From Antedon mediterranea (Eukaryota; Echinodermata; Crinoidea; Comatulida; Antedonidae): a stretch of DNA of 64,000 bases. How positions within the stretch are numbered: position 1 is the stretch's first letter; the number at the start of each line of letters is the position of its first letter. The notes under the pieces were generated by a model, which was not told where the DNA came from, made no database searches, and saw only the letters and a list, made by a program, of their open reading frames with translations. Of this stretch, positions 3,101 to 57,500 are shown piece after piece. The translations under genes were made by a program, and so were the position numbers. The stretch lies in contig NC_092670.1 of NCBI RefSeq assembly GCF_964355755.1, forward strand, positions 19,219,201-19,283,200, read 5' to 3'.

Positions 3101-6100
3101 AATGATTGCATAACCAAAAGTTATTGGAGCATAACATTTTTCCATCTTAATTTATTTAAGGTGAAAGTTCAGAAGCCACTCTTCCAGAGGGGGTGCATGA
3201 AGCATTTATAACAGCAGAAACTATCAGACCAGTTCTTGTAAGAATTTGCACTATTCTATAGTAATACTTTTATTCTCAGAAAAACCTTACAGGTAATACA
3301 TATAGGTAATAGGGTCCCTAATGATCAGCTTCGGCTGGAAGGACCACCCTTGTAAAATATTGTTGGGAAAAAAAATATATATAGAGGCAGAATAACCTAA
3401 GTTGAAGATACATATAACTTGATTTAAGTAATCAATTACAAATTATTGATATTATAATTTGAATATCTATTTATCTTCAGGTGGATCTTCGTCAGAAGCA
3501 CATTGTAGCAACAGAGAACACTATTACACCAGATCAGTCGCATGATGAACCAGGTCAGTCTCTTTCTGTTTTAAAGATTATATGAAGTGTATTGTAATAC
3601 TTTACCATGTAATATTCTTTTGTTGTTTTCAGTTTTAGCATGGAAAGAAAAGGCTGAGTTTCTTTTGGAGTTTGGTGGTCTTTCAAAGATCGAACCTAAA
3701 GCTCAGGTAAATATTCTGTTAATTTGACTTTGTAGGGTTTTTGCTTAAGATCTGTCTACACTATCAAATTAGTTTGACAAAAATTTGTGATGTGCCTAAA
3801 TATTATAGTGATATGCCCAAATATGGTAGTGATATGACATCATCATGTCCATATATGGGAACATCACATTTTTTTGTCACATAAACTTTGATAGTGTAGA
3901 CAGAGCTTTACAAGCGTTTTTATTGCACTCAGCGAGTGTAAATGGATTTGACTAATTTACGGCCTTCATGTTGCTTACTCCATGAATTGTCACAATGTGA
4001 AGCAAAATTTGTTAGCTTTTTCCTTCTGTTTTTTTTTTATAAAAGGTAAAAACTTTACTAAGAAGTTTGTCATCAGTAAACAGTAAAGAAAATCGAACGA
4101 AAGTGGCTCATCCTGGAACCTTTGATAGCGAAGCGACTTTTGAGAAACATCCATCGTTCAAACTGGTGTTAGATTTCTTAAAGGATCCTAGATTCTCAAG
4201 GAGAAAGTATGTAACTATTGTATGGCTATTTATGTACATATTATAGTATATTCCAGTTCATCAGCATGGACATGTATTTTTGTCTCAGGTTCAACTGCCA
4301 GAATTTCTTGTTCCTTGTGAAATTATTGCCAAAAAATCACCTATAAAAATTTTACACATATTTATCTTCTACATTTCGAGAATAAAGTTTTTGAATTAAA
4401 TTGTTAATTAGCATAACAGAGATGTCACCAAAATAATGATTGTGATTTTTTTTTAAAGAGTGGAAGACTTGTTAGAACAGAGAGTGCAACGAGCAGAGCG
4501 TATTGCTTATGGTTACAACTTTGCACTGACCTTTCTTAGGTTCCATGGCACACCACACATCTTTAATGTTTCCTGTGTACAGTTTTTGCAAGAAATGCTT
4601 ATAGCCCAAGACAAAGATCTGGTGTAAGATGTTTTATGTGATTAACTTGAACGTAGCCTGTGTGTGAGTGAGTGGCCGAGAGGTTGAGACAGTGGAATCG
4701 AGGCTCACTTGCTCCATTGTTCTGGTGGTAAAACGAGTCTTCTTGGATAAGGACTATAAACCGTAGCTCATGTGTACAACGAGACGAATAGGGGTTACCC
4801 CGGTGTACTAGTACACACACAGCCACTGATCATTACTGGGCCCTCTGGGAGACCAGTCTTTGACTGAAGAGGTTACCCAGTATAAATAATAATAATAAAT
4901 ACATAATAATAATAACTTTCGGAATTAATAATGGATATATTTGATCATCCTAAAAAGCATTTTTGTTTGATTTTTTTTTCATTTCGCTTTTTCAGTCATT
5001 ATGCAGTTTTTATAGATGGGTGTGGTCTTGATCTTGAGACTAAAGTTCGTAAAGCATACTATGCGTTAGTTCAGCTTTTGACTAATGCAATTCAGGACAA
5101 CTGGGCGTCTCCAAATGACCGGTATGTTAAAACAATCATTCAGTTTGATATGCAATGGAAGACATCAGTATATCTGTCTTGTTTATGGTACATCTCTATT
5201 GTAAAATGACACTTAGTGACCTACATGACAATAAGTGACCTACATGAATGAGAAAAATACAAGAAACAGGAAACTTAATTATATTAACGTGTTAGAAGCT
5301 AATTTTCTTGCTACTATTTTCATAGATTGGATCAGCTGGCAGTTGACTGCGTCCAAGCCTGTTTGCTCCACCTTCTTGATGTTGATTGGCAGTCTTACGA
5401 TTTTGCGTTTCTTGCTGAAAATAATGTTCCGAAGCTGTTACTTACCATCGTCAAGAGTAAGTTAGTGCCAGTTTGGACTGGTTTAAAGCCCCTGTGTGGG
5501 AGCTTAGACATTGACCTGGTATCATCATGATTCACTGGGTTCTAGTGATCTTGATACAATCCCCCGTATCTTGATATCAGCTACCTGTATGCAAGAAGTC
5601 TGTAGAGTCAATGGATTTTATCTTTGTATATGCATAAGCTTTAACGACCTAAAATTCCTCAAAAGCCCTCTAACTCGAAACTGAAAATGGACCTCTCTGA
5701 GACGAGGCTGTAAAGTAAAGTATATGCAGAAAATATAGTTCATTCATGGCCCATTACTTATTTTCTGTTTACTGGATTCAAAATGATATTCACACAAGTA
5801 TGTTAACAATCACACCAATTCTGTTGCTTTTTCTTTGGTATTTTAGGAGCTGTAAGTCTTTACAGCCATCAAACCAAAGAACCGGATGACGTCAAGGAAT
5901 TAGGTGATTACTATAAACATAAAGGATGGTTTGAAGAATGCCAGGGTGATAACTTCGGAACTTGGTTCAAACAGATCTCAACCAAAGAATATTTGGACAC
6001 AAGACGAGTGAGTAATACTGTAGACCCCCCTCATTTTTGACACCCCTATTCAGGGAAAAGCCATATTTAGTGGACACCCTTAAAGGGACACTTTCCTGTG

Positions 6101-19217: not shown

Positions 19218-20640
19218 TTATATACTAATTTGAATATAGTCAATATCATTTGCTGGTATTTGCGAGTCCATTTCATCTCCTGCCATTCGAAACGTTATGC
19301 TCATGTTGTACGGGATGTTAATGGTACCGTTGCTGGCATTCCATAACCAACCGGTACCACCACGTTGCAGCATTGACACAGAAACCTTCAAAAATTGGAA
19401 AAAATATCTTAAAGATTCTACCAAAAACAATATGCAACAAGTGCATGTCATGAAAAGCTTAGATGAAGTTATAGAATGATCTATATTTACCTGTGGTGTA
19501 TACCCAAGTATCGCCCAAAGCGTTGCCGTGATTGTGTTACGTTGATGAACAAATTGCAACTTTTCAGTTTCTTTCCGATTCGGTGCAATTTGGCTGCCGC
19601 TTTTAAAATCCCCTACTAATTGCTTTCCCCCATTTAGTTGTATCACATCCCATGTACCAATGGACTTTAAAACGGTCCTTGCACACTCCATTGTACTATA
19701 CGATAACTGGCCTACAATGAGAAAATAATGAATGAATTAATGAATGAACAAACATACACTTCTAAATTTAAGGAGCTTATGAAATTATCCATAAACATAT
19801 TTTAAATGTTTAAGACCTTAAAAGTTTTAAAGTGAAAACAATTATTTTGGATGGATTCCAATGTATCTGGTAAACATAAAACAATTGAATGAAAAACAAA
19901 ACAAAGCTATATGATTCTTATACCTGAAACAAATCCGGGTATAATAGCGTCTCTTAATGTCGATAAATATGTAAACTGAAACGATTCCAAAAACTGATTA
20001 TATCGCTCTGGCAAGATCACCTCCTTTAATGATGCTATGTCATCGGGCAAGCTTACACGATCATTCATAAACACAACATACGAATGAAACACTTTTGATG
20101 GTAAACAAACGTCTTTACGTATTAAGTGATTGCGTAACAGATTTGCTCGAAGCTTGAGTTTGTCGAGGACATTGTCATGTTTTAAATCGTATTCAATGGT
20201 GGCGTGTCCAGAGGTTTTGTCGTTTTTATGTTGAATCCAGCTTTTTCCATCATTACTCACTCGTATAGCTCCAGACCAATTTTTCACTTCGATGACATAT
20301 ATTCCATTTCCTGTTAAAACAAATTTTTTTGGAAACATTTTTTTTTTAAATAGGACAAAACTTTATACTGTACTTAATAAAATGACCAGAAGAAGAGATT
20401 TGATAGATTCACTCCCATACCTGTCAAAACAACCAAATCAATCTCATGTTTTCTTGTTTGAAATTCATCTGGTACGCGCAAGCCACAAAATACGTCGCCT
20501 TTATTCACACCACGTTTCTCTAAAGCAGAGAGGAAACTTTTCTCTGCATCTCTGCCGACTTGGACATGAGCCTCTTCTGAGTGTACTTTAGGTGAGCTGA
20601 CATGCTCAGCTTGGACCAACCGATTCCTTACGTTAAACAT
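19218..20640 (-). CDS. NERD-domain (nuclease-related domain) protein, 331 aa, four coding exons
   Basis: Coding exons in transcript order: 20640-20421, 20310-19924, 19711-19491, 19385-19218; phases close at 331 aa plus TAA. The core has the NERD signature: EKSFLSALEKRG near residue 31, a 'HEIDLVVLTG' strand at ~65-74, and 'GIYVIEVKNWSG' at ~76-87, the D and E-x-K of a PD-(D/E)XK-like nuclease fold. NERD proteins are common in bacteria, archaea and plants; the biochemical role is poorly known and nuclease activity is inferred from the fold. The exon extends to an acceptor at 20665, and a likely 5' UTR exon ends at a GTAAGA donor at 21288, because the ATGs there soon reach stops. No membrane segment or signal peptide is evident. 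The C-terminal ~130 aa after the NERD core match no family I recognise. Transcribed away from POLD2. Confidence 0.85.
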
Positions 20641-22323: not shown

Positions 22324-25300
22324 ATGTCAGAATTAATGTGTAATCCGACAGAGGAGCAATTAAAACTATCGAGAGGAACAAGCAATTATCATAGTCATTG
22401 TGACCAGTTCATCATCAAAGATCGCAACTATAGTCGGCAATATGCGCATTTATACGCACAGCGACTTAAATGCTTTTATCCAACACTTGAAAAAACAATC
22501 CAAAGAAAATGGGGTAATAATTTAATTTAACTTGCAATTTTTGTCATTAACAATTTTTATTTTTATACTATGAAATGTACATTTTATAATGTTTTTGTTT
22601 TTTCTTTCAGGAAATAGTATTAATATTTGTAAACTGTTTGAATTAAAAAAAGGTGAAAGGTGTTGTGTGATAGGAACGATATTCAAAAGTATGGAGTTAC
22701 GTCCAAATATCCTCAAAGAAATCAGTGATGAGGTATGGCATTTGTCAATCTATTAAATATAATATAGAGATACAATATCCATATACCCTTATAATCATAA
22801 ATCAACTCACTATGCCCAATAGACAAAAAACTCCCAATACCTGGCAGCCTTGGGCTGGCCTAATTTCTAGTATTACGAATTGTTTTTAATCGTATAACAA
22901 CATTTGTACCTTAGCTATACATACAGGTATATTTATAACTATAAATCAAACAGCTGAATAAGATAGATAGAAAAAATCAAACAAGTTAAAACTGCCTCAA
23001 TATAAATTTATTGTTACAACATGTTTCAAGCATAGCCCATCATCTGGTGAAGAGAATTGCAACAAAGGATAACATATATCAGTCAAAAAAATTACATAAT
23101 AAACAAATCAGCCAGTCAAAAATGTTAAACAAATCAAATTAAATCATTCGCTATTTAAGTTTTGGCCTTTATCTATTTATAACATACTTTTTTATATTTT
23201 AGCATAATTTAATGCCACAGCCAAGCAGAGAAAAATACATAAGTGACTCAGACACACTTATTTTAGAAGATGATTTGCAACGAATATCATTGGTCGGAAA
23301 CATTGATGTATCCAAGGCAGTCATAGGTAAGAGTATGTCATGCTGCATGACTAGTTTGCTGACAAATTTAACTAGACATGGATTGTCTGTCTTCTGATAT
23401 AAGCCGGTTTTTTACAAACTTAACATGTACAGGCCAAATCAGTGAACAATAGAGTATTCTAGATTGACCTTTTTTTTTCATTTTAGGCACAATTGTAGCT
23501 GTTTTAGGAAAAGAAGACAGTTCAAGTAAATTTGAAGTTGAAGATATTACATTTGTAGATCTACCATCACAAATACCAGCTACTCCACCAGAGCAAGATA
23601 GGTAAGTTGGAATGGAGTCAAGTTACTATTACTTTAACTTTTAGATTGTTTCATTCTCCAAAACATAAAAATGTACATATATATAAATGAGGGACCCATG
23701 GCAGTCACACTGCTGCATCTACCATGATCAGTACACCAGGCAACATTTCCCTACTCTTTTCGAATAGTTTACCAATCATAGTACATCCTATCTGAAGGAT
23801 GAGGCAATGAGAGTAAAGCATCATGCATAAGGATAGAAGCACAGACACATCTCTCACATTTCTTCTCTCTTTATCATTATACCATAGTCATAGAAGCACA
23901 GACACATCTCTCACATTTCTTCTCTCTTTATCATTATACCATAGTCATAGAAGCACAGACATGTCTCTCATATTTCTTCTCTCTTTATCATTATACCATA
24001 GTCATAGAAGCACAGACACATCTCTCACATTTCTTCTCTCTTTATCATTATACCATAGTCATAGAAGCACAGACATGTCTCTCATATTTCTTCTCTCTTT
24101 ATCATTATACCATAGTCATAGAAGCACAGACAGGTCTCTCACATTTCTTCTCTCTTTATCATTATACCATAGTCATAGAAGCACAGACAGGTCTCTCACA
24201 TTTCTTCTCTCTTTATCATTATACCATAGTCATAGAAGCACAGACAGGTCTCTCATATTTTTTCTCTCTTTATCATTATACCATAGTCATAGAAGCACAG
24301 ACAGGTCTCTCACATTTCTTCTCTCTTTATCATTATACCATAGTCATAGAAGCGCAGACAGGTCTCTCACATTTCTTCTCTCTTTATCATTATACCATAG
24401 TCATAGAAGCACAGACAGGTCTCTCATATTTCTTCTCTCTTTATCATTATACCATAGTCATAGAAGCACAGACAGGTCTCTCACATTTCTTCTCTCTTTA
24501 TCATTATACCATAGTCATAGAAGCGCAGACAGGTCTCTCACATTTCTTCTCTCTTTATCATTATACCATAGTCATAGAAGCACAGACAGGTCTCTCATAT
24601 TTCTTCTCTCTTTATCATTATACCATAGTCATAGAAGCACAGACAGGTCTCTCACATTTCTTCTCTCTTTATCATTATACCATAGTCATAGAAACACAGA
24701 CACACATCTCTCACATTTCTTCTCTCTTTATCATTATACCATAGTCATAGAAGCGCAGACAGGTCTCTCACATTTCTTCTCTCTTTATCATTATACCATA
24801 GTCATAGAAGCGCAGACAGGTCTCTCACATTTCTTCTCTCTTTATCATTATACCATAGTCATAGAAGCACAGACAGGTCTCTCACATTTCTTCTCTCTTT
24901 ATCATTATACCATAGTCATAGAAGCACAGACAGGTCTCTCACATTTCTTCTCTCTTTATCATTATACCATAGTCATAGAAGCGCAGACAGGTCTCTCACA
25001 TTTCTTCTCTCTTTATCATTATACCATAGTCATAGAAGCACAGACAGGTCTCTCACATTTCTTCTCTCTTTATCATTATACCATAGTCATAGAAGCGCAG
25101 ACAGGTCTCTCACATTTCTTCTCTCTTTATCATTATACCATAGTCATAGAAGCGCAGACAGGTCTCTCACATTTCTTCTCTCTTTATCATTATACCATAG
25201 TCATAGAAGCACAGACAGGTCTCTCACATTTCTTCTCTCTTTATCATTATACCATAGTCATAGAAGCGCAGACAGGTCTCTCACATTTCTTCTCTCTTTA

Positions 25301-28178
25301 TCATTATACCATAGTCATAGAAGCACAGACAGGTCTCTCATATTTCTTCTCTCTTTATCATTATACCATAGTCATAGAAGCACAGACAGGTCTCTCACAT
25401 TTCTTCTCTCTTTATCATTATACCATAGTCATAGAAGCGCAGACAGGTCTCTCACATTTCTTCTCTCTTTATCATTATACCATAGTCATAGAAGCACAGA
25501 CAGGTCTCTCATCTTTCTTCTCTCTTTATCATTATACCATAGTCATAGAAGCACAGACAGGTCTCTCATATTTCTTCTCTCTTTCTCATTATACCATAGT
25601 CATAGAAGCACAGACAGGTCTCTCACATTTCCTCTCTCTTTATCATTATACCATAGTCATAGAAGCACAGACAGGTCTCTCACATTTCTTCTCTCTTTAT
25701 CATTATACCATAGTCATAGAAGCACAGACAGGTCTCTCACATTTCTTCTCTCTTTATCATTATACCATAGTCATAGAAACACAGACAGGTCTGTCATATT
25801 TCTTCTCTCTTTATCATTATACCATAGTCATAGAAGCACAGACAGGTCTCTCATATTTCTTCTCTCTTTATCATTATACCATAGTCATGCTCTCTCTCAT
25901 AGCAGATTTATAAAAGTAATTCTATATTCTGGTGCAGGTCCGTACTCCTTATGTCTGGACTTGGAATTGGTTCAGAAGATCAACACTTACTGAACCTTCA
26001 GATGATGATTGACATGGTTACAGGTAATCTAGGCAACATTGAGGATCAAAAGATGACAGCAAACATTGTACAAGTCATCGTCGCTGGCAACAGTCTCAGC
26101 TCTAATGCTAAGAATAAAGACGCTATGTCCATGGTGAGAAATTTAAAAGATATTCAGTATTACAAATATTTCCTATTTAAGTTGAAATAATCTGATGTCA
26201 GCTATTCAAATGCATAAACAACTTCTTTCTTCTTGAGTACTGTATGTTAATTATTATACAGTCGACTCTCCCAATACCAGACTCTCTGACAACTAGAAAC
26301 TCTCACAATATTAGACTCTCTGACAACTGGAAACTCTCACAATACCAGACTCTCTGACAACTGGAAACTCTCCCAATACCAGACTCTCTGAAAACTGGAA
26401 ACTCTCCCAGACCAGACTTTACTTGAAGTTCAAAAGGTCCCAAATTCATTTTTACCATTAAAAATACATTCTGAATACCAGACTTTCCGGAAAACCAGAC
26501 ACATTAGGCCAGCCCAAGAGTGTCCAGTATTGGGAGAGTTGACTGTAGTCAGATTTGTTATAGAACTGCATATGTTCAGGTATTGTTATATTTTATATAG
26601 GCTAAATACTTGACAAGAAATACATCCCCCATCAGCAGTGCAGGTGTGAGGAACTTGGATGATATTTTAGCACAGTTAGTGGTAAGTAAACATTTATTGT
26701 AAGTACCCTCTACTGGGTATCCTTACTGTCAATTGCACTCTTGCAGTATATTTTTTCTAGTATCTGGATTTTATTTCAAAGTCTTATTTTAGAGTTTCTC
26801 CATACCAATTTATGTAATTTCTTATTTATCTGTTCAGAGCTCAATTCCAGTTGACATAATGCCCGGTGAACAGGATCCAGCCAACTACACTCTACCTCAA
26901 CAGCCACTTCACCGTTGCATGTTTCCCCGGGCTAGCTTGTACTCATCCCTCAATCTTGTAACCAATCCATATGAGGCAACAATAGGTGGTTTTAGGTAAT
27001 GTTTCTTACTTTATGACATCGTTTTTCTACTGTAAAGTCCCAGAGATTTATTGGTGATTTCTAGCGTTGAACATTAAAGTTGTCGTAACGCGAACAAATG
27101 AATAGAGGATTCCGCTGCCTCTACTAGTAGGCTCACAGTGAGACGTAGGCCTAGGCATACTAATATCTCTATACTGATGGTTCTTCGTTTTTAGTAGGGC
27201 ATATCCTAGCCCAAAACATTTTGGACTAGGCAGAATACTTAGACCTACCTAATATCCCCACGCCTACTTTCCGGAACATCATTTTATAGTCACTTTGGCA
27301 AGGCTAGGCCTAGCTTTGACCACGCTGCGATGCAACAAAAATAAATGTAGTCGTCGTCGTTAGTTAAAAAACGTACCCTTTCCTGTAAATTATTAACATT
27401 TCAATGTTTACACGTAGGAGATCGCCGATTATTGTTAACAATAACGTCGACAGGAAAAGGCCCAAAGTACACAATGTCAGACGGAATGCAACACAAGTAG
27501 TATATAAGTATGTCGTAAATGTCACATCCCGTTAGGAACCAAGAGGTAATATCTCGGAATAAGTGCTAATGTACTTCAAACCTTCTTTTAGATTCTGTGG
27601 TACATCAGGCCAAAATGTAGAAAGTATTTACAGGACAACAACGATGGATGACCGAATGGAAATCCTAGAAACAACACTCAAGGCTGGTCATGTGGCACCA
27701 ACTGCACCAGATTTGTTAGGTTAGTTCAGGTATTGATACCATGATCTCATAAAGATTAAGAGTTTCTGTCACTGGATAATGATAATTACCAACTTTTGTT
27801 TCTTTAATCAGGTTGTTATCCATATTTCAACGATGACCCTTTTATCATCAAACACTGCCCTCATATTTATTTTACCGGAAACCAACCAAAGTTTCAAACT
27901 AAGCGATGGACAGGTGAGAGAATATTGTAAAACTTTTCAATTATATAATATGTCGATATAAATTCCAATTTTTAGTAACTTTGATATATTTTATTATTTC
28001 AGATTCACTAGGCAAGAAAGTCACATTAATATGTATCCCAGAATTCCACACTACACAGACATGTGTACTAGTTAACCTTCGAACTATGGAATGCCAACCT
28101 TTAACCTTTGACACTGACATATCAGAGCAAGCATCTGATGTTGATATGGCAGATGAAGAGGTGGGTGCAAAACGATGA
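22324..28178 (+). CDS. POLD2: DNA polymerase delta subunit 2 (small/B subunit), 463 aa, ten coding exons
   Basis: Exons 22324-22513, 22611-22732, 23203-23326, 23487-23601, 25938-26133, 26601-26681, 26838-26995, 27592-27719, 27812-27913, 28003-28178; phases close at 463 aa (human 469). POLD2 is the regulatory B subunit of replicative polymerase delta, holding the catalytic subunit to the rest of the holoenzyme in the nucleus. N-terminal OB-fold part: '[15 protein letters not shown]' and '[17 protein letters not shown]'. C-terminal inactive phosphoesterase part: 'LLMSGLGIG', 'VIVAGNSLS', '[10 protein letters not shown]', '[20 protein letters not shown]', '[11 protein letters not shown]'. Intron 4 (23602-25937) carries a long minisatellite and intron 5 an inverted-repeat element. 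Tail to tail with USP1, 445 bp between stops. Confidence 0.97.
22827..22880 (-). mobile_element. Terminal fragment of the element at 26259-26546
   Basis: 'aactcccaatacctggca' and 'cttgggctggcctaat' are the reverse complement of the 3' end of the POLD2 intron-5 element. Only one end is present. Confidence 0.55.
23834..25888. repeat. 57-bp minisatellite, 36 tandem copies, in POLD2 intron 4
   Basis: Unit of 57 bp, AGAAGCACAGACAGGTCTCT then CACATTTCTTCTCTCTTTAT then CATTATACCATAGTCAT, repeated 36 times over 2055 bp at about 95% or better identity. Variants alternate (acatctc / atgtctc / aggtctc; cac or cat before TTTCTTC; gcac or gcgc). One unit near 24692 has two extra bases. Since 57 is divisible by three and no unit has a stop in two frames, a spurious ~690-codon open frame runs through it. 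I do not regard it as coding. Confidence 0.98.
26259..26546. mobile_element. Inverted-repeat element with internal 34-bp tandem repeat
   Basis: Begins CAGTCGACTCTCCCAATACC and ends with the near inverse GTATTGGGAGAGTTGACTG. Inside, a 34-bp unit (actctcccaataccagac + tctctgacaactggaa) is repeated about four times from 26266. The right part has 'ggccagcccaagagtgtcc'. In POLD2 intron 5. A partial relative lies at 22827-22880. Confidence 0.75.
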
Positions 28179-34900: not shown

Positions 34901-37900
34901 ATGCCTGCAGTGTTTAGAAGATCATGAATTGTCATCATATGCTGAACTAGAAACTATTTGCCGTGTAAGTACAATACAGTTATTTTGTTTTTATACAATA
35001 AAATAGTTAAGTTAAGGTTTTACAAAACATATTGGTAATACAAAGAAAAACATGAAATAAATTATTATAATGAAAAAATTTTCAAATAAAATGAATGAAA
35101 GAAAACATTTTTTTATTTCTATATACAAATGATTTTATTTTTATTTGTAATTGATGTTATGAGCAAATTAAAAAAAAATTATCTAAATCATTTATTTGTC
35201 AACAGATTTTAACTGGAGAGGAGAACGTGTTTATTGAGCTACGTGACCTAACAGGGACTTGGTACCAAATGCTAGTAGCGAAGCTGCTGTACACCAACCC
35301 TACAGTAAAGACGTTTGATCTACAATATCACACAAAGGTGTTTTATTTGCTTATTCTTTACCACCAGTAAAGTTAATTCTATTAGTTTTGATTATTTCAA
35401 CTGTAAGCCTCAATGATTGCTGTATATGGGTATGAGTATAATGCCATGTTGAATTGCAGTATAATCCCACGCTTGAGTATAATCCCACGCTTGAGTATAA
35501 TCCCACTCTTTAGTATAATCCCACTCTTTAGTATAATCCCACTCTTTAGTATAATCCCACGCTTGAGTATAAGCCCACTCTTGAGTATAATCCCACGCTT
35601 GAGTATAAGCCCACTCTTGAGTATAATCCCACGCTCGAGTATAATCCCATGCTCGAGGATAATCCCATGCTCGAGGATAATCCCATGCTCGAGGATAATC
35701 CCATGCTCGAGTATAATCCCACGCTCGAGTATAATCCCACGCTCGAGTATAATCTCGTAAAATCCCACGATTGAATATAATCCCACGTTCGAGTATAATC
35801 CCACACTCAAGTATAATTATATAGATAGAATAGATTATAAATATAATCCCACCCTTCTCATTTAGGTTAATGAAAACAAGATTGTTAATGCAATCTGACT
35901 AATTATTGGCAAAATGTGTACCCAAGCCCATTGGGGCTATAATCGGGTCATATACAGTAATGAGGATTAATTATTTGGCAATTTGTCTTTCAATTTGGAA
36001 TCATTGTTCTCAATTTAGTCGTGTTTAGATGCGTACGGTGGCAGTAGCAGTTTGACCCCATTTGACAACATCTTGCTGGCAGCACTTGAGTTTGATATCC
36101 ATCAAGTTATTAAGGAAAGCAGGTAAATTTCAATTGAATCTTTAATTTCGGAATCTCTGTTCCGTAGAAATATACATCATTTTGTATAAATTAATAAATT
36201 TCATTACAAATACGTTTATTCATCAAATCATATATCAGTGATAAAATGATATGTACAATGTTTTAAAGAAAATGATGAAATGGGGTCTCAGGAAACAAGG
36301 AAGATTTGTCTAAAAGAGACCCCAAAATTAAATTAATTAAAACTATAATAAGTGACAAGAGTACAATATGGTGAATAATACTATTCCATTTTGTTTTTTA
36401 GCACATGCTTAAATAATTGGTGGTTCAGTGCTCATATAACAGATTTACTGCACCATTGTGGTCAGTTAGAAACTCACCAACTTAAGTAAGTACTTGAAAG
36501 TTAACATGTTGGCTCTCAATTTGCATTCAATAGCTGGAAGAACATAAGAAAGACAAATTAAATAATCTTCTAAACTAAATAATTAAATTTTTCAGCTATG
36601 GCTCCAACTTGAGGGAATTCTTACTTCTGGAATATGTATCTAGTCTAATGTCACATAAAAGGTATGATGATTGAGATTTTTATTTAGTTACATAGGTCAT
36701 ATGTACATATTAATGAAGATTGTCATGTTTTGCAATCCATGTCCAATCAGTGAGTGAGTGGCCGAGCGGTTAAGACAGTGGAACCGTAATCACGTAGCCA
36801 TAACATCGGCAGGGGTTCGAGGCTCACTCACTCCATGGTTCATGGTACACATCTAGCTCGTGTGCACTTTAAAGAACCTAGTACATCTTTCGAGACGAGT
36901 AGGGGGTTACCCCGGTGTATTAGTACATCACAGCCACTGATCACCAACTGGGCCCTCTGGGAGACCAGTCTTTGACTGAAGAGGTTACCCAGTATAAATA
37001 TATATTTCAATTCAATTCAGTCCTGCACAATAGCAGAATTTGAAGTGTAAAAAAAGGTTGATTTAGATTACCCATAAAATTTCACTCGCAGTGCAAAATG
37101 CTAAGATAAAAAAATAATAATGTTTAATATTTATACTTTTAATTTTTTTTAGTATGTGGCAGATATGTATGGGATATTTAGATCATTGTGCTGAGTCTGG
37201 CAGGTAGGAAATTAAAAGTATTATTGTAGTTTAAATATTTATAATAATATATAAACACAAGAGGCAAAGAACATTAATTCTAAACCGCCCGGTGATAAAT
37301 TTAATTAATTAATTTGAAACGATAAAGATGAGGAAATCTGTGAGAATGAGAAAAAGTCGCCCCAACCGAGACTCAAACTCGGACCGCCTGCTTGATATGC
37401 AGATGTCCTAACCATTAGACCACTGGGGCTTTCATGGTATTGTTCGAACTCGATTGGATAACGACTCTTTAACATTCTCGGCGTGGTACGGCGGAACAGC
37501 ACTAGTCCTCAGTTGTACGCACGCGCAACAGAGATCAAATTGATACGCCCTCATCTTACAGTATTTTTATTCACGAGGCGGGATCTCCGAAGAGATACTT
37601 TTATATATATAAACACAAGAGGCAAAGAACATTAATTCTAAACCGCCCGGTGATATACTGAAATTTAATTAATTTGAAACGATAAAGATGAGGAAATCTG
37701 TGAGAATGAGAAATATACATATATATATATATGTTGTTAGCTTGTAATATATCTGTTTCTTGTAAAATATAAATATCTTCTTGCTGTTGATTAATTTTTG
37801 TTGCTTTTATTTCGTACAGGCATTACCAAGAATTGCTAGTTGAACGAATTCCACTACAGACCAACAAAAAGGCTTTGAAACTCTTGGAAATGTGCAGAGA

Positions 37901-40900
37901 TCGAGATATGAAAGATCAAGGTAGCACTTTTCTATTGTGTATTTTCTAGTAGGAGTGTTTATTTCTTGATGTTAAAGCTCAGGTACAGGCATGAATTTTA
38001 AATATAATATCTGGTTAATTGTACATAAATCCAATATTTGTAACAGAAATCAAGACGAAAAACCATGAATTTCCCTAATATGGTCAAATACAAAATTTGG
38101 CAAAATTCTGCCAAAAAAACCAGGAAGACCTTTTTTCTGTAGTTAGGTAGTTAACATAATGTAATAACATGTCTGGTGACTCCCTAGAAGGTGAAAAAAG
38201 ATGGTGGATATACGGTGGATAATTTTTGCTATACAGTAGTAGCATGAAAATAAAATTCTGAAGTTGAATAAAAATACCAGAAATGTAAAATTCAAGTTAT
38301 ATTACCTATATTTAGTCATATAACATTTTTTACCACACCGTTTATTTTTCATAGCTTTTTAAAATACCTCTCTATTTTCAAAATTTGTGTACAAAAGAAT
38401 AGAGATTTTACTGTGTAATTTGAACTATCCCCCACTGATATGAAAGTGCTAATTTTCAAAAAGCTCCTGTAACACAAATAAAATCCCAAAAATTATGAAA
38501 CATAGGGGAAACTATAGATCGATAATTATTGGAATGTATGATCAATAGAAATTTTTTGCCCGCACCTGGCCTTTAATACTATATGTATTTTTCTTATTAG
38601 TTAAAACCATTTGTAAGGTGATGTGTATGCAAGCATTGCATAATGGTCGTCTTGGCTCAGCCTTGTCGTGGTGCATGCAGTCAAAAGATGCAGCCTTTGC
38701 CACTTATTTGTCGGAGAAGTTCTTGGCCGAGTACACAACAACTGGTGATTTCTCAAACTTGGACTTGATTGACAATCTAGGGCCTGGCATGCTTCTGAGT
38801 GATAGGCTTACATTTCTTGGTGAGTTGGTTAAATCGTTAATTCTAAAGCTCTGTCTACACTATCAAACTTTATGTGACAAAAAATGTGATGTGCCCATAT
38901 ATGGACATGATGATGTCGTATTACTACCATATTTAAACTTATCACTACCATATTTGGCCACATCGCACACCTTTTTTTGTCAAACTAGTTTGATAGTGTA
39001 GGCACAGCTTTACAGTAGTTTGTATTGTATAGATAGATCTTATAATTTTGTTTACATTTTATTTAAAGGAAAATATCGAGAATTTCACCGTCTCTACGAA
39101 AGTGGTAATTTTAGAGAGGGTGCATCGCTCTTGTTATCATTACTATCAGCCAAACTGGCACCAAAGAAGTAAGTGCAATATACTCTACATTGAATCTTTA
39201 TATTGTTCTAAAAGTATATTTTTATCTTATATAGTTCTAATTTCAGGAATCATTCACTGATAAATTATTTAAAGCTGTATTTTTATTACGTCTTCTAAAG
39301 CAGTATTAAAATAAAAAGCTTTAAAATTAACTTTCAATTACATACTTAATGCAGTTGGTTAAATCAGCTAACAAGTATATTTAAGAAGCATAAAGGAGAA
39401 AACCACTAAATGTACAGTATTTTAATGAAGATTGCAAATAACTGTTAGTTGCAGCATGAGGCTGTGTCCAAACACGGTCATTCTGTTCTAGATTCAAAAT
39501 GGCAATATTTGTAAAAGACTGTCCTTCCGACCCTTGACCCAAGCCTGCTGTAATGATCACACCGTTTTTCATCAGATTTGTTCGTAAAGCAACATTCTGA
39601 TCTTTTTTCTGACTAGTGAAACTGAAAACATATGTTCCAGGAATTTGACACAAAAAAAAACCAGTTTCTGCACTGTAATGATCACCAACATTTGTTATAA
39701 TGTTGTCGTATTTCATCGGACCAACAACTTCAAAGCTTGAATAGCTGTATGCAACTGTAAATGCTGACTTGCGTTGAATTTCTTCTCTGAGTGGTCCTTG
39801 TGGGCCCTTAGGTCCTAACTTACCAGGCGCTCCAGCATCCCCTTTCTGGCATTGTACACCAACTATTCCATCTGACCCTTTTTCTCCTTTCTGACCTGGG
39901 TTGCCAGTATTTCCAGGGTTGCCTGGGTTGCCCGGATTACCAGGAATTGCAGTACAACAGTTGCTGCATGTTTCTGCAGTAGCACATGTTTCATAAAATA
40001 GTTTCAATATGACTGCCAATCCAAACAATTTATCGTTAACCAACATATTGTATCTAAAATGATGAAATTTAAAATGATAATTTGTCTACTTTAGGGTCCA
40101 ACCTTTGTAGTTCCTTAATATACTGGTATTGTAGTGGTTTTAACAACAACAAAACTTTTAAGTTATTTTTTAACAACAAAGTTGAAATCATAACGTCTAA
40201 AAAATGTACAACATACCTTATTTGAAGATATTCACTTGTTGCTTAGTGCTTTGTGTATGTAAAAGTAGCGAATGAACTACTGTACTGATAAACTGTAGTT
40301 CTTATTTTGTATAATTACTATACAAAACACTTAGAACCAGGATGCTTTTTCTTCCTTATTGCAATTAAAGGAGCATGTCTGAAGAATTTACATACAAGTA
40401 CTGTATTGCTTTATGAAGCAGAAATAACAAATCTATTAATGTGTGTTTAAAAATCCATCCCACATTTCCTAATAAAATAGTATGTATGTTAGTTAATTCT
40501 CTGCTGCAAAGCTATAGGTAATGTATTTTGACAGCATGTAATGTTGAATTGAATTGTGTTATGCGCCCTTTAATACATTATAAGATTAAAAGTTTTCATG
40601 TTATAATAATTATAACAAAACTCTTGTAATCTATTGTTCTTCTTATCTTTTCCTGCATTCCTTGATTCGGAAGTAACTAATTTTGTTTGTTCTTGAGTGG
40701 AATAAACTGGAATGAACTGGAATAAACAGCTTCATTGTAATAACATGGATCTATTATAGGTTCATGGTAATTAAACCAGAACACACACATCATGGAGCTC
40801 CATGCACACATTAAGCTCTGTCTACAATATCAAACTTTATGTGACAAAAAAATGTGATGTTGCCAAATATGGACATGATGATGTCATATCACTACCATAT

Positions 40901-54457: not shown

Positions 54458-54532
<75 letters not shown>

Positions 54533-57500
54533 AACAGACAAACATACAAACATACAAACAGACAAACAGACAAACAGACAAACAGACAAACAGACAAACA
54601 GACAAACAGACAAACATACAAACATACAAACATACAAACATACAAACATACAAACATACAAACATACAAACATACAAACAGACAAACAGACAAACACACG
54701 CTACCGATTACATATACCTCCTTGGCGGAGGTAAATAATCAATGTACATATAAAAATGCAATATTTTATGCTAATTTAGAAAAAAGATTGTACATTCAAG
54801 TACAAAGAAAAGGTATCACACACTGTTTTGTATAATGTTGTGTAATAAAACTGTGGAGAAATATAATATTATAAATAAATAATTTGTTCTTTATATGATA
54901 GGTGCTGGGAAAACGTATACAATGCTTGGAACGGATGATGAACCAGGAATTATGGCACGTACGCTAAACGATCTTTTCAAGGCAATTGAATCCAAGAGTG
55001 AAGACAATATTTATAAGGTCACAATGTCATATTTAGAGGTCAGTTAATGACATTTTCTACATTAACTCTTGCAATTCCGGCCCATGAGTCTGGTTTTCAG
55101 AATGTATTATAATGACATACAGTAGTAGGACCTTCGGGACCTTAATAGATATATAGTTTATTTATAATTTGTTGTGTATTTCTAGATTTATAATGAAATG
55201 ATCCGAGATTTACTGAATCCCACGGGAGAAGTACTGGAACTACGCGAAGATGCTTCCGGAAATGTACAAGTTGCTGGCATATCTGAAATATCAACACGTT
55301 CTACACGGGAGGTAATAGAAAATTGTTATTAATTAGGTAGTCTTTTTTACTCCAACTAATGACTTTTTGGTTTAAGCAGCATTTGAAATTCAGTAGTGGT
55401 ATCGGAAGAGAACTTGGATTTGATAAAAAGTTGTTTTAGTCCCCTTTCTGCACTATTTGAAGACAGTAGAAGATTGTCTCCTGTGGCTATATTCTCCATT
55501 TCCACTTTTAAACATAAAATTTTGAAAAATCTCCAATCTAAGTGAATACAATTTAAGGAAAATACTTAAATATTTATTGAGTTAAGTGAAATACTTAATA
55601 TTTAATGGAAATACTGTATTTTATCTGAAGTGTAATTGGTGAATAGGGCCACAGGTGTGCTGATCTGGGTAGGCACTGCACTGTGGCTGATATGTGTTGG
55701 TAGACGGCTTAATCCAAATTTCATCTGAGGACATACATCCACATTTTAATATTACAGTATCGTAATACTTCTTTCTTCATCAGATTATGAATTTACTGGT
55801 ACAGGGAAATAAAGAACGTACCCAAGAACCCACAGCTGCTAACAAGACCTCATCACGTTCACATGCTGTACTACAAGTTACTGTCAAACAACGCAGTCGT
55901 ACTCGCAACATATCACACAGTATAAAAGTTGGCAAACTGTTCATGATAGACTTGGCTGGCTCAGAGAGGGCATCGCATACCAAAGTAAATGTTTAACAAT
56001 TTCTGTTAATTTTTTTTTCAAATGAAACAACAGTCGGCAAGAAACAGTAATCTTCACCAAATCTTTTTTTTATAGAATCGGGGCAAAAGAATGATAGAAG
56101 GAGCCCATATTAATCGTTCACTACTTGCTTTGGGCAACTGTATCAATGCTTTGTGTGAAGGGGGCAAGTATGTTAACTACAGAGACAGTAAAATTACGCG
56201 CCTATTAAAAGTAAGTCTATTCATATTTTTAGTCTCTATATCTAATCTTTTGTGATCATTATTTTTTTTTTCGTTTTATTTTTTCACTAAAAATGTTATA
56301 AATATTGCATTGCTAATTTTACAGTTCACAATAATAATTTGTCTTTACAGGATTCTCTTGGTGGAAATTGTCGAACAGTGATGATAGCTCACCTGAGCCC
56401 TGCCAGCTTATATTATGAAGAGTCTAGGAACACCTTGTTGTATGCAGACAGGGCTAAAAATATTAAAACCAAGGTACCTTGTTGTAAATTTCTATATTGC
56501 TGATCATTTTCTTTGTTGTGTATTCAACCATTATTACAAATATCTGTGTTATGTTTGCAGATAAAATTGGTTAAAAAAATTTGCATAATTTTCTTCCCAG
56601 GTACGGCCAAACATGATGAGCGTGTCTTATCACATTGCTCAGTATACCAGTATTATTGCAGATCTCAGAAAAGACATCTTAAGACTTAAGTCAAAGATCA
56701 CAGACCAGGAGTCTGAGATACAGAAAACAAAGTCCACATCAAGGATTCAAGAAATACACTGTAAGGGGGAACATTTTACTGCGGAAGGCCTATATCTTGT
56801 ATTTTCGTATTTAGTATAATTGCAGTTTTTGACTTCAATTACCTCAACACTAATGATTCCATTGTATACTGTCAACTGGTATATGTAGTTGTCACTAACC
56901 AATAAAAATTCACATATCAATCCCATTTTTTATAGTGGGCTTGATATTTGTATTTTTATATGGTTAGTGACTATATGTGATATTTTTATATTTTATATTG
57001 TGAAATTGTTTGGAAACAAATTTTTATATATTTCTAATGGCTAAATTACATACATACATACTGCTTTTTATTATATATTTATATTTTCCATAAACTATGA
57101 GCTCAATGTAATTGCCTTTTTAATGAATAACTTTGACTTTGACATCATTCTATTTTCTTACAGCTGAGGTAGAAAGAACTTCAATCATGCAAGATCGCAG
57201 TGAAATGGAGCGGTTACGAGACCTGCTTACCGAGAACTTTCAGAAGCGAATGTTGACTCGGCAACAGTTGATTGAATTGGAATCTCATCGGTTTGCACGT
57301 GCCATTGACAGTAATAAGTACATAAGTATTGTAGCCGGGTGAGTAGGCTTTTTTATCAGAAAACACTGCATGTTTATGTAATAGACTCCAGTACTCAAAA
57401 GCAAGGCTCACTATTGTTTTAATTACATAAGATAAAAACAAATTACTCTACTTAAATTAAAACAAGGGATCATTTTATTTGCATTTTAATTTTTAAAAAG

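Follow-up and report, generated by a model that had tools for sequence, protein, structure and literature searches.

This analysis identified, in intron 4 of the gene encoding DNA polymerase delta subunit 2 (POLD2) of Antedon mediterranea, a 57-bp minisatellite that is probably neutral: it would have grown from one pyrimidine-rich founder, would serve no dedicated function, and would be coated by PTB while the intron that carries it is removed cleanly. We infer PTB occupancy, clean splicing and neutrality from established features of the array, namely (i) its position, (ii) the anatomy of its units, (iii) the weak scores of its splice-like elements, (iv) its motif density, (v) its presence at one locus and (vi) the presence of a PTB homologue in the genome.

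The host gene and its fourth intron

The window (the whole stretch of 64,000 nucleotides analysed here) contains on its plus strand a gene for which we built a spliced model of 10 coding exons and nine introns, the end of the last exon being provisional. The product matches human chain 6s1m_B, DNA polymerase delta subunit 2, with E 7.5e-152 over residues 20-442 and contains the Pfam domains DNA_pol_D_N and DNA_pol_E_B, which confirms the identity given to the gene in the initial annotation. Coding exons 1-3 (22324-22513, 22611-22732 and 23203-23326) and exon 4 (23487-23601, donor tag+GTAAGT) are followed, beyond the array, by exon 5 (25938-26133, acceptor AG at 25936-25937), exons 6-8 (26601-26681, 26838-26995 and 27592-27719) and exons 9-10 (27812-27913 and 28003-28160, the latter with the provisional end). 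The reading frame places between exons 4 and 5 a phase 2 intron of 2,336 nt (23602-25937, plus strand), the longest of the nine modelled introns (89-596 nt for the other eight), of which 280 nt remain when the array is subtracted.

The array ends 49 bp upstream of the real acceptor at 25937, as previously proposed. Although this gap (25889-25937, plus strand) contains more AGs, ending at 25902, 25905 and 25916, the exon-5 acceptor is fixed at 25937 because the junction EQD-R/SVLL aligns without gap with human TDR-FVLL, and the reading frame rules out 25902 and 25905.

Two other elements were observed around this gene. Intron 5 carries at 26257-26547 a short inverted-repeat element that resembles a pogo/Tc1-type MITE: its 31-nt arms are 87% complementary, each of its ends has a TA (TACAGTCGACTCTCCC...GGGAGAGTTGACTGTA), and it encloses a tandem repeat of 34 bp x 4.6. 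Beside POLD2, a minus-strand ORF (19910-20362) encodes a NERD (nuclease-related) domain (Pfam E 2.3e-11).

Anatomy of the array

Tandem Repeats Finder delimits the array at 23833-25888 (plus strand), with 36.0 copies, a period of 57 and 97% matches, and gives it by far the highest score of the window (3842 versus 440 for the next repeat). Its units lie head-to-tail, and it is therefore a minisatellite in the sense applied here (units of some 10-100 bp arranged in this way for at least hundreds of bp). Cutting the array yielded 36 units of 12 sequence types, all of 57 bp except unit 16 (59 bp), the commonest type being ATAGAAGCACAGACAGGTCTCTCACATTTCTTCTCTCTTTATCATTATACCATAGTC (12 copies). Units 1-5 form a separate group by sequence.

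The initial observation of the array was partly confirmed. Every unit indeed carries a pyrimidine run and then ACCATAG, units 8, 31 and 32 differing within or beside the run. In unit 1, the 14-nt run TTTCTTCTCTCTTT, which contains the PTB-type CTTCTCTCT, lies at 23859-23872 (plus strand) and recurs every 57 bp, and the putative decoy acceptor CCATAG lies at 23882-23887 (plus strand). The further claim of a GT 18 bases downstream holds for the spacing from CATAG to GT, which is 18 nt, but not for the presence of a GT in every unit: a GT follows the acceptor-like AG in 32 units, with CAG directly before it in 30 of them (CAGGTCT) and CAT in units 3 and 5 (CATGTCT), whereas units 1, 2, 4 and 16 have CACATCT, without GT.

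Another element, missed by the initial annotation, is a branchpoint-like YTNAY (CTCAC or CTCAT; 23853-23857, plus strand, in unit 1), which recurs every 57 bp in 35 of the 36 units, with its A located 31 nt upstream of the first AG of the unit and no AG in between. The composite of a branchpoint, a run of at least 12 and an AG is found in only 0.2-0.8% of background 57-mers or shuffles (8 occurrences with CTNAY or 20 with YTNAY in 284 kb of background, both strands), and shuffling of the founder unit yields a run as long as its own (14 nt) in 1% of cases; these frequencies should be read knowing that the 36 units, all derived from one founder, count as a single observation and that the motif was picked after the sequence had been seen. 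The uncommon anatomy of the founder counts against the neutral reading.

Strength of the splice-like elements

The splice-like elements were compared with 32 donors and 32 acceptors from the same genome, i.e. those of the nine POLD2 introns and of 23 introns of chaperonin (CCT) genes modelled by frame-consistent joining of Pfam exon matches; as these joins were picked partly by splice-site score, the set is somewhat biased toward good sites. The acceptor model was trained on this species, and the real sites were scored by leave-one-out.

Real donors of this genome prefer a purine (A or G) at +3, followed by AG at +4 and +5. The GTCTCT of the units has C, T and C at these positions, the usual donor bases being absent, and CAGGTCTCT (first found in unit 6 at 24131-24139, plus strand) scores -1.3, below all the real donors (lowest -0.4, median 4.5). 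Real acceptors score from -1.2 to 13.4, compared to -1.8 to 0.0 for the first decoy AG of the units, -2.1 to -0.4 for the second and -5.5 to -3.9 for the CAG preceding the GT. All but one of the 32 real acceptors outrank the decoy AGs; among 643 ordinary intronic AGs, about 10% reach the score of the best decoy. This weakness is geometric, as the pyrimidine run stops 13 nt upstream of the AG dinucleotide, with ATCATTATACCAT in the gap, whereas real acceptors of A. mediterranea are T-rich up to position -5. The founder was acceptor-like in layout, although weak in the bases adjoining the AG. The acceptor of POLD2 exon 5 itself scores 2.2, under the median, which also counts against the neutral reading. 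Sites as strong as the real ones, as expected of a splice-site-providing minisatellite of the IFI6 type, were not found in the units. Consequently, the 36 decoy 3′ splice sites that had been proposed to be paired with a GT are not expected to act as functional pairs, and 18-nt micro-exons are unlikely to arise from the array. Overall, the interpretation initially given to the array is partly supported.

The consequences of mis-splicing are clear-cut in terms of reading frame. Retention of intron 4 leads to a stop at residue 185, two codons past exon 4, and extension of exon 5 to any of the 36 first AGs causes both loss of frame and a stop (36/36). An 18-nt insert preserves the frame and introduces no stop; the earlier statement that the pieces of about 18 nt are multiples of three is arithmetically correct. 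More generally, of the 571 AG-to-GT combinations, 286 have a length divisible by three, and none of these 286 contains a stop. However, this property follows from the unit being 57 bp long and stop-free, so that selection is not needed to explain it. The open frames of 698 and 433 codons are likewise a product of the stop-free unit, and their coding use was rejected, translation from exon 4 into intron 4 also meeting an immediate stop.

These frames bear on the proposal that repeat-derived exons are made, exon 4 being joined to the AG of one unit and a later CAG/GT to exon 5, so that 18 + 57n nt would be inserted without loss of frame; the EQD-R junction could, for instance, gain six residues within S-H-R-S-T-D-R. 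The stop-free combinations and the branchpoint-like, pyrimidine and AG elements of the units would agree with it, as would the IFI6 minisatellite, which yields real donors according to Turri et al. (1995), as cited in PMC4526556. Nevertheless, with the donor and acceptor scores given above, an exon of only 18 nt and a frame property of chance origin (a unit divisible by three, with 19 stop-free codons), we regard such exons as very unlikely.

PTB-type motifs and a possible effect of array length

The strongest property of the array is its density of PTB-type motifs. It contains 320 overlapping or 105 non-overlapping YUCUYY/YYUCUY motifs, i.e. 15.6 per 100 nt, 28 times the background (0.55), the richest other 2-kb window reaching 2.7. 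One unit has nine of these motifs versus 0.75 expected from shuffles (p 0.00025); CUUCUCUCU is present in 34 of the 36 units and CTTCTCTCT occurs 34 times in the array versus 0.01 expected. UCUU and CUCUCU are selected optimal PTB motifs (PMC4117754), and PTB represses the c-Src N1 exon by binding CUCUCU elements around it (PMC12136456). In the literature searched, the literal 9-mer CUUCUCUCU was not found linked with PTB, CUCUCU being the known element (PMC12136456, PMC4117754). This motif density bears out, as a possibility, the earlier suggestion that polypyrimidine-tract proteins could bind the array. The genome encodes a PTB homologue (PTB RRM2 exon at C6:30636210), and PTB may bind the RNA of the array. 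The search for RNA structure in the array revealed nothing unusual (z +1.2).

The array belongs to a known kind, which includes intronic minisatellites influencing splicing (ABCA7, IFI6) and PTB-binding pyrimidine repeat RNAs (PNCTR), its apparent likeness to them being one of sequence logic only. The human ABCA7 intron-18 VNTR is, like the POLD2 array, an intronic minisatellite adjoining a spliced exon and having long alleles, and binding of splice factors to its unit has been proposed (PMC6660495). The two are likened by position and kind, not by unit sequence, and length variation and an exon-skipping effect have been measured for ABCA7 whereas the POLD2 array is known from the sequence of one assembly. 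The units of IFI6 (6-16) also bear splice-site-like sequence (Turri et al. 1995, cited in PMC4526556 and PMC2572611); in the account given by these citing papers its donors are used in mRNA, whereas the units of the POLD2 array have a very weak donor-like GT and are dominated by the acceptor-like element. The decoy exon of the OGT detained intron is, similarly, an intronic splice-site-like element that may engage the spliceosome while remaining unspliced (PMC12017769), but it is a single exon whose sites are usable and whose effect has been demonstrated, compared to weak predicted sites here.

In a rival explanation, the array affects removal of intron 4 according to its copy number: by binding PTB or U2AF, it would delay use of the exon-5 acceptor or cause retention, the retained transcripts, carrying an immediate stop, would be destroyed, and array length would set POLD2 output. 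The very high PTB motif density and the stop that follows exon 4 on retention are consistent with this, as are the length of the ABCA7 VNTR tracking exon-19 skipping and lower expression (PMC6660495) and the decoy elements of OGT favouring intron retention (PMC12017769). However, the decoys are weak, sequence constraint is not visible and array length was read from a single assembly, so that we consider this explanation unlikely; its more specific form, in which a PTB-repressed acceptor module, naturally amplified 36-fold in tandem within an essential replication gene, would serve as a rheostat whose length controls intron removal and hence POLD2 dose, is less likely still. If array length did alter intron removal, the locus would be a clean titration, made by nature, of how many weak acceptor/PTB modules precede a single acceptor, and replication is sensitive to the dose of the gene concerned. 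With one locus, uniform units and clear frame consequences, the array is a well-defined test case.

The motif density also resembles that of PNCTR, a short-tandem-repeat RNA that sequesters PTBP1 and carries 565 non-overlapping and 2,178 overlapping YUCUYY/YYUCUY motifs (PMC6224606). A nascent or excised intron RNA acting likewise as a PTB sponge is highly improbable: although motifs of the class counted for PNCTR are dense here, a short life and a low copy number are to be expected for the intron of a single protein-coding gene, and each molecule has about one fifth of the sites carried by PNCTR, which is a long RNA polymerase I transcript.

History of the array

Under the neutral reading, the founder would be one 57-bp pyrimidine-rich stretch located about 50-105 nt upstream of the exon-5 acceptor and amplified by unequal exchange or slippage. 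The pre-mRNA would then present 36 weak acceptor-like modules, each also dense in PTB sites; with their pyrimidine runs covered by PTB-family proteins, these modules would be shielded from U2AF, so that the array would mask its own weak acceptors, the stronger terminal acceptor would be used and the intron would be cleanly removed. Very long alleles would cause at most a mild drop in splicing efficiency.

A search of the 354-Mb genome, whose counts are lower bounds, found the 57-bp repeat at one locus, and a dispersed or satellite repeat family was therefore rejected. The unit types recur in a higher-order pattern of period 3 (p 0.001 by shuffling, this lag being the best of eight examined); recent segmental duplication is expected to produce both this pattern and units that are 97% alike, which counts for neutral growth. 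Constraint on the splice-like elements was not apparent (variable positions: 4/22 inside versus 6/35 outside, Fisher p 1.0). Against neutrality, the 16-nt segment 42-57, which contains the AG, does not vary between units (uncorrected p 0.03). In addition, a 69-bp minisatellite that is not pyrimidine-rich (at least 23.4 copies, since the sample stops inside it; score 3010) turned up in the 80 kb of genome sampled at random (L054:8384-10000), indicating that long minisatellites are not exceptional in this genome. Taken together, the single locus, the period-3 pattern, the separate group formed by units 1-5, the lack of any shortage of variants and this other array fit ordinary minisatellite turnover, and neutrality may be kept as the default.

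A role at the DNA level, in which the strand asymmetry of the repeat would affect chromatin or replication, seems scarcely credible, as does a wrong copy number in the assembly. The GC skew over the array (-0.40) could suggest the former, but R-loops are favoured by G-rich RNA, whereas the RNA transcribed here is rich in C and U; the coherence of the unit variants and of the flanks argues against an artefact.

Other repeats and genes of the window

The window also contains a 21-bp motif, GTGATATGCCCAAATATGGTA or its complement, in short tandem pieces at 3787, 12124, 40885, 50810 and 51686, which is probably a dispersed repeat family. Two other tandem arrays were found, an 18-bp x 20 minisatellite (AGTATAATCCCACGCTTG, 35458-35817) and an octamer array of about 30 copies (ACAAACAG, 54458-54696). 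Finally, a collagen and C1q-domain protein is encoded within a long open frame on the minus strand at 39384-40085 (Pfam).
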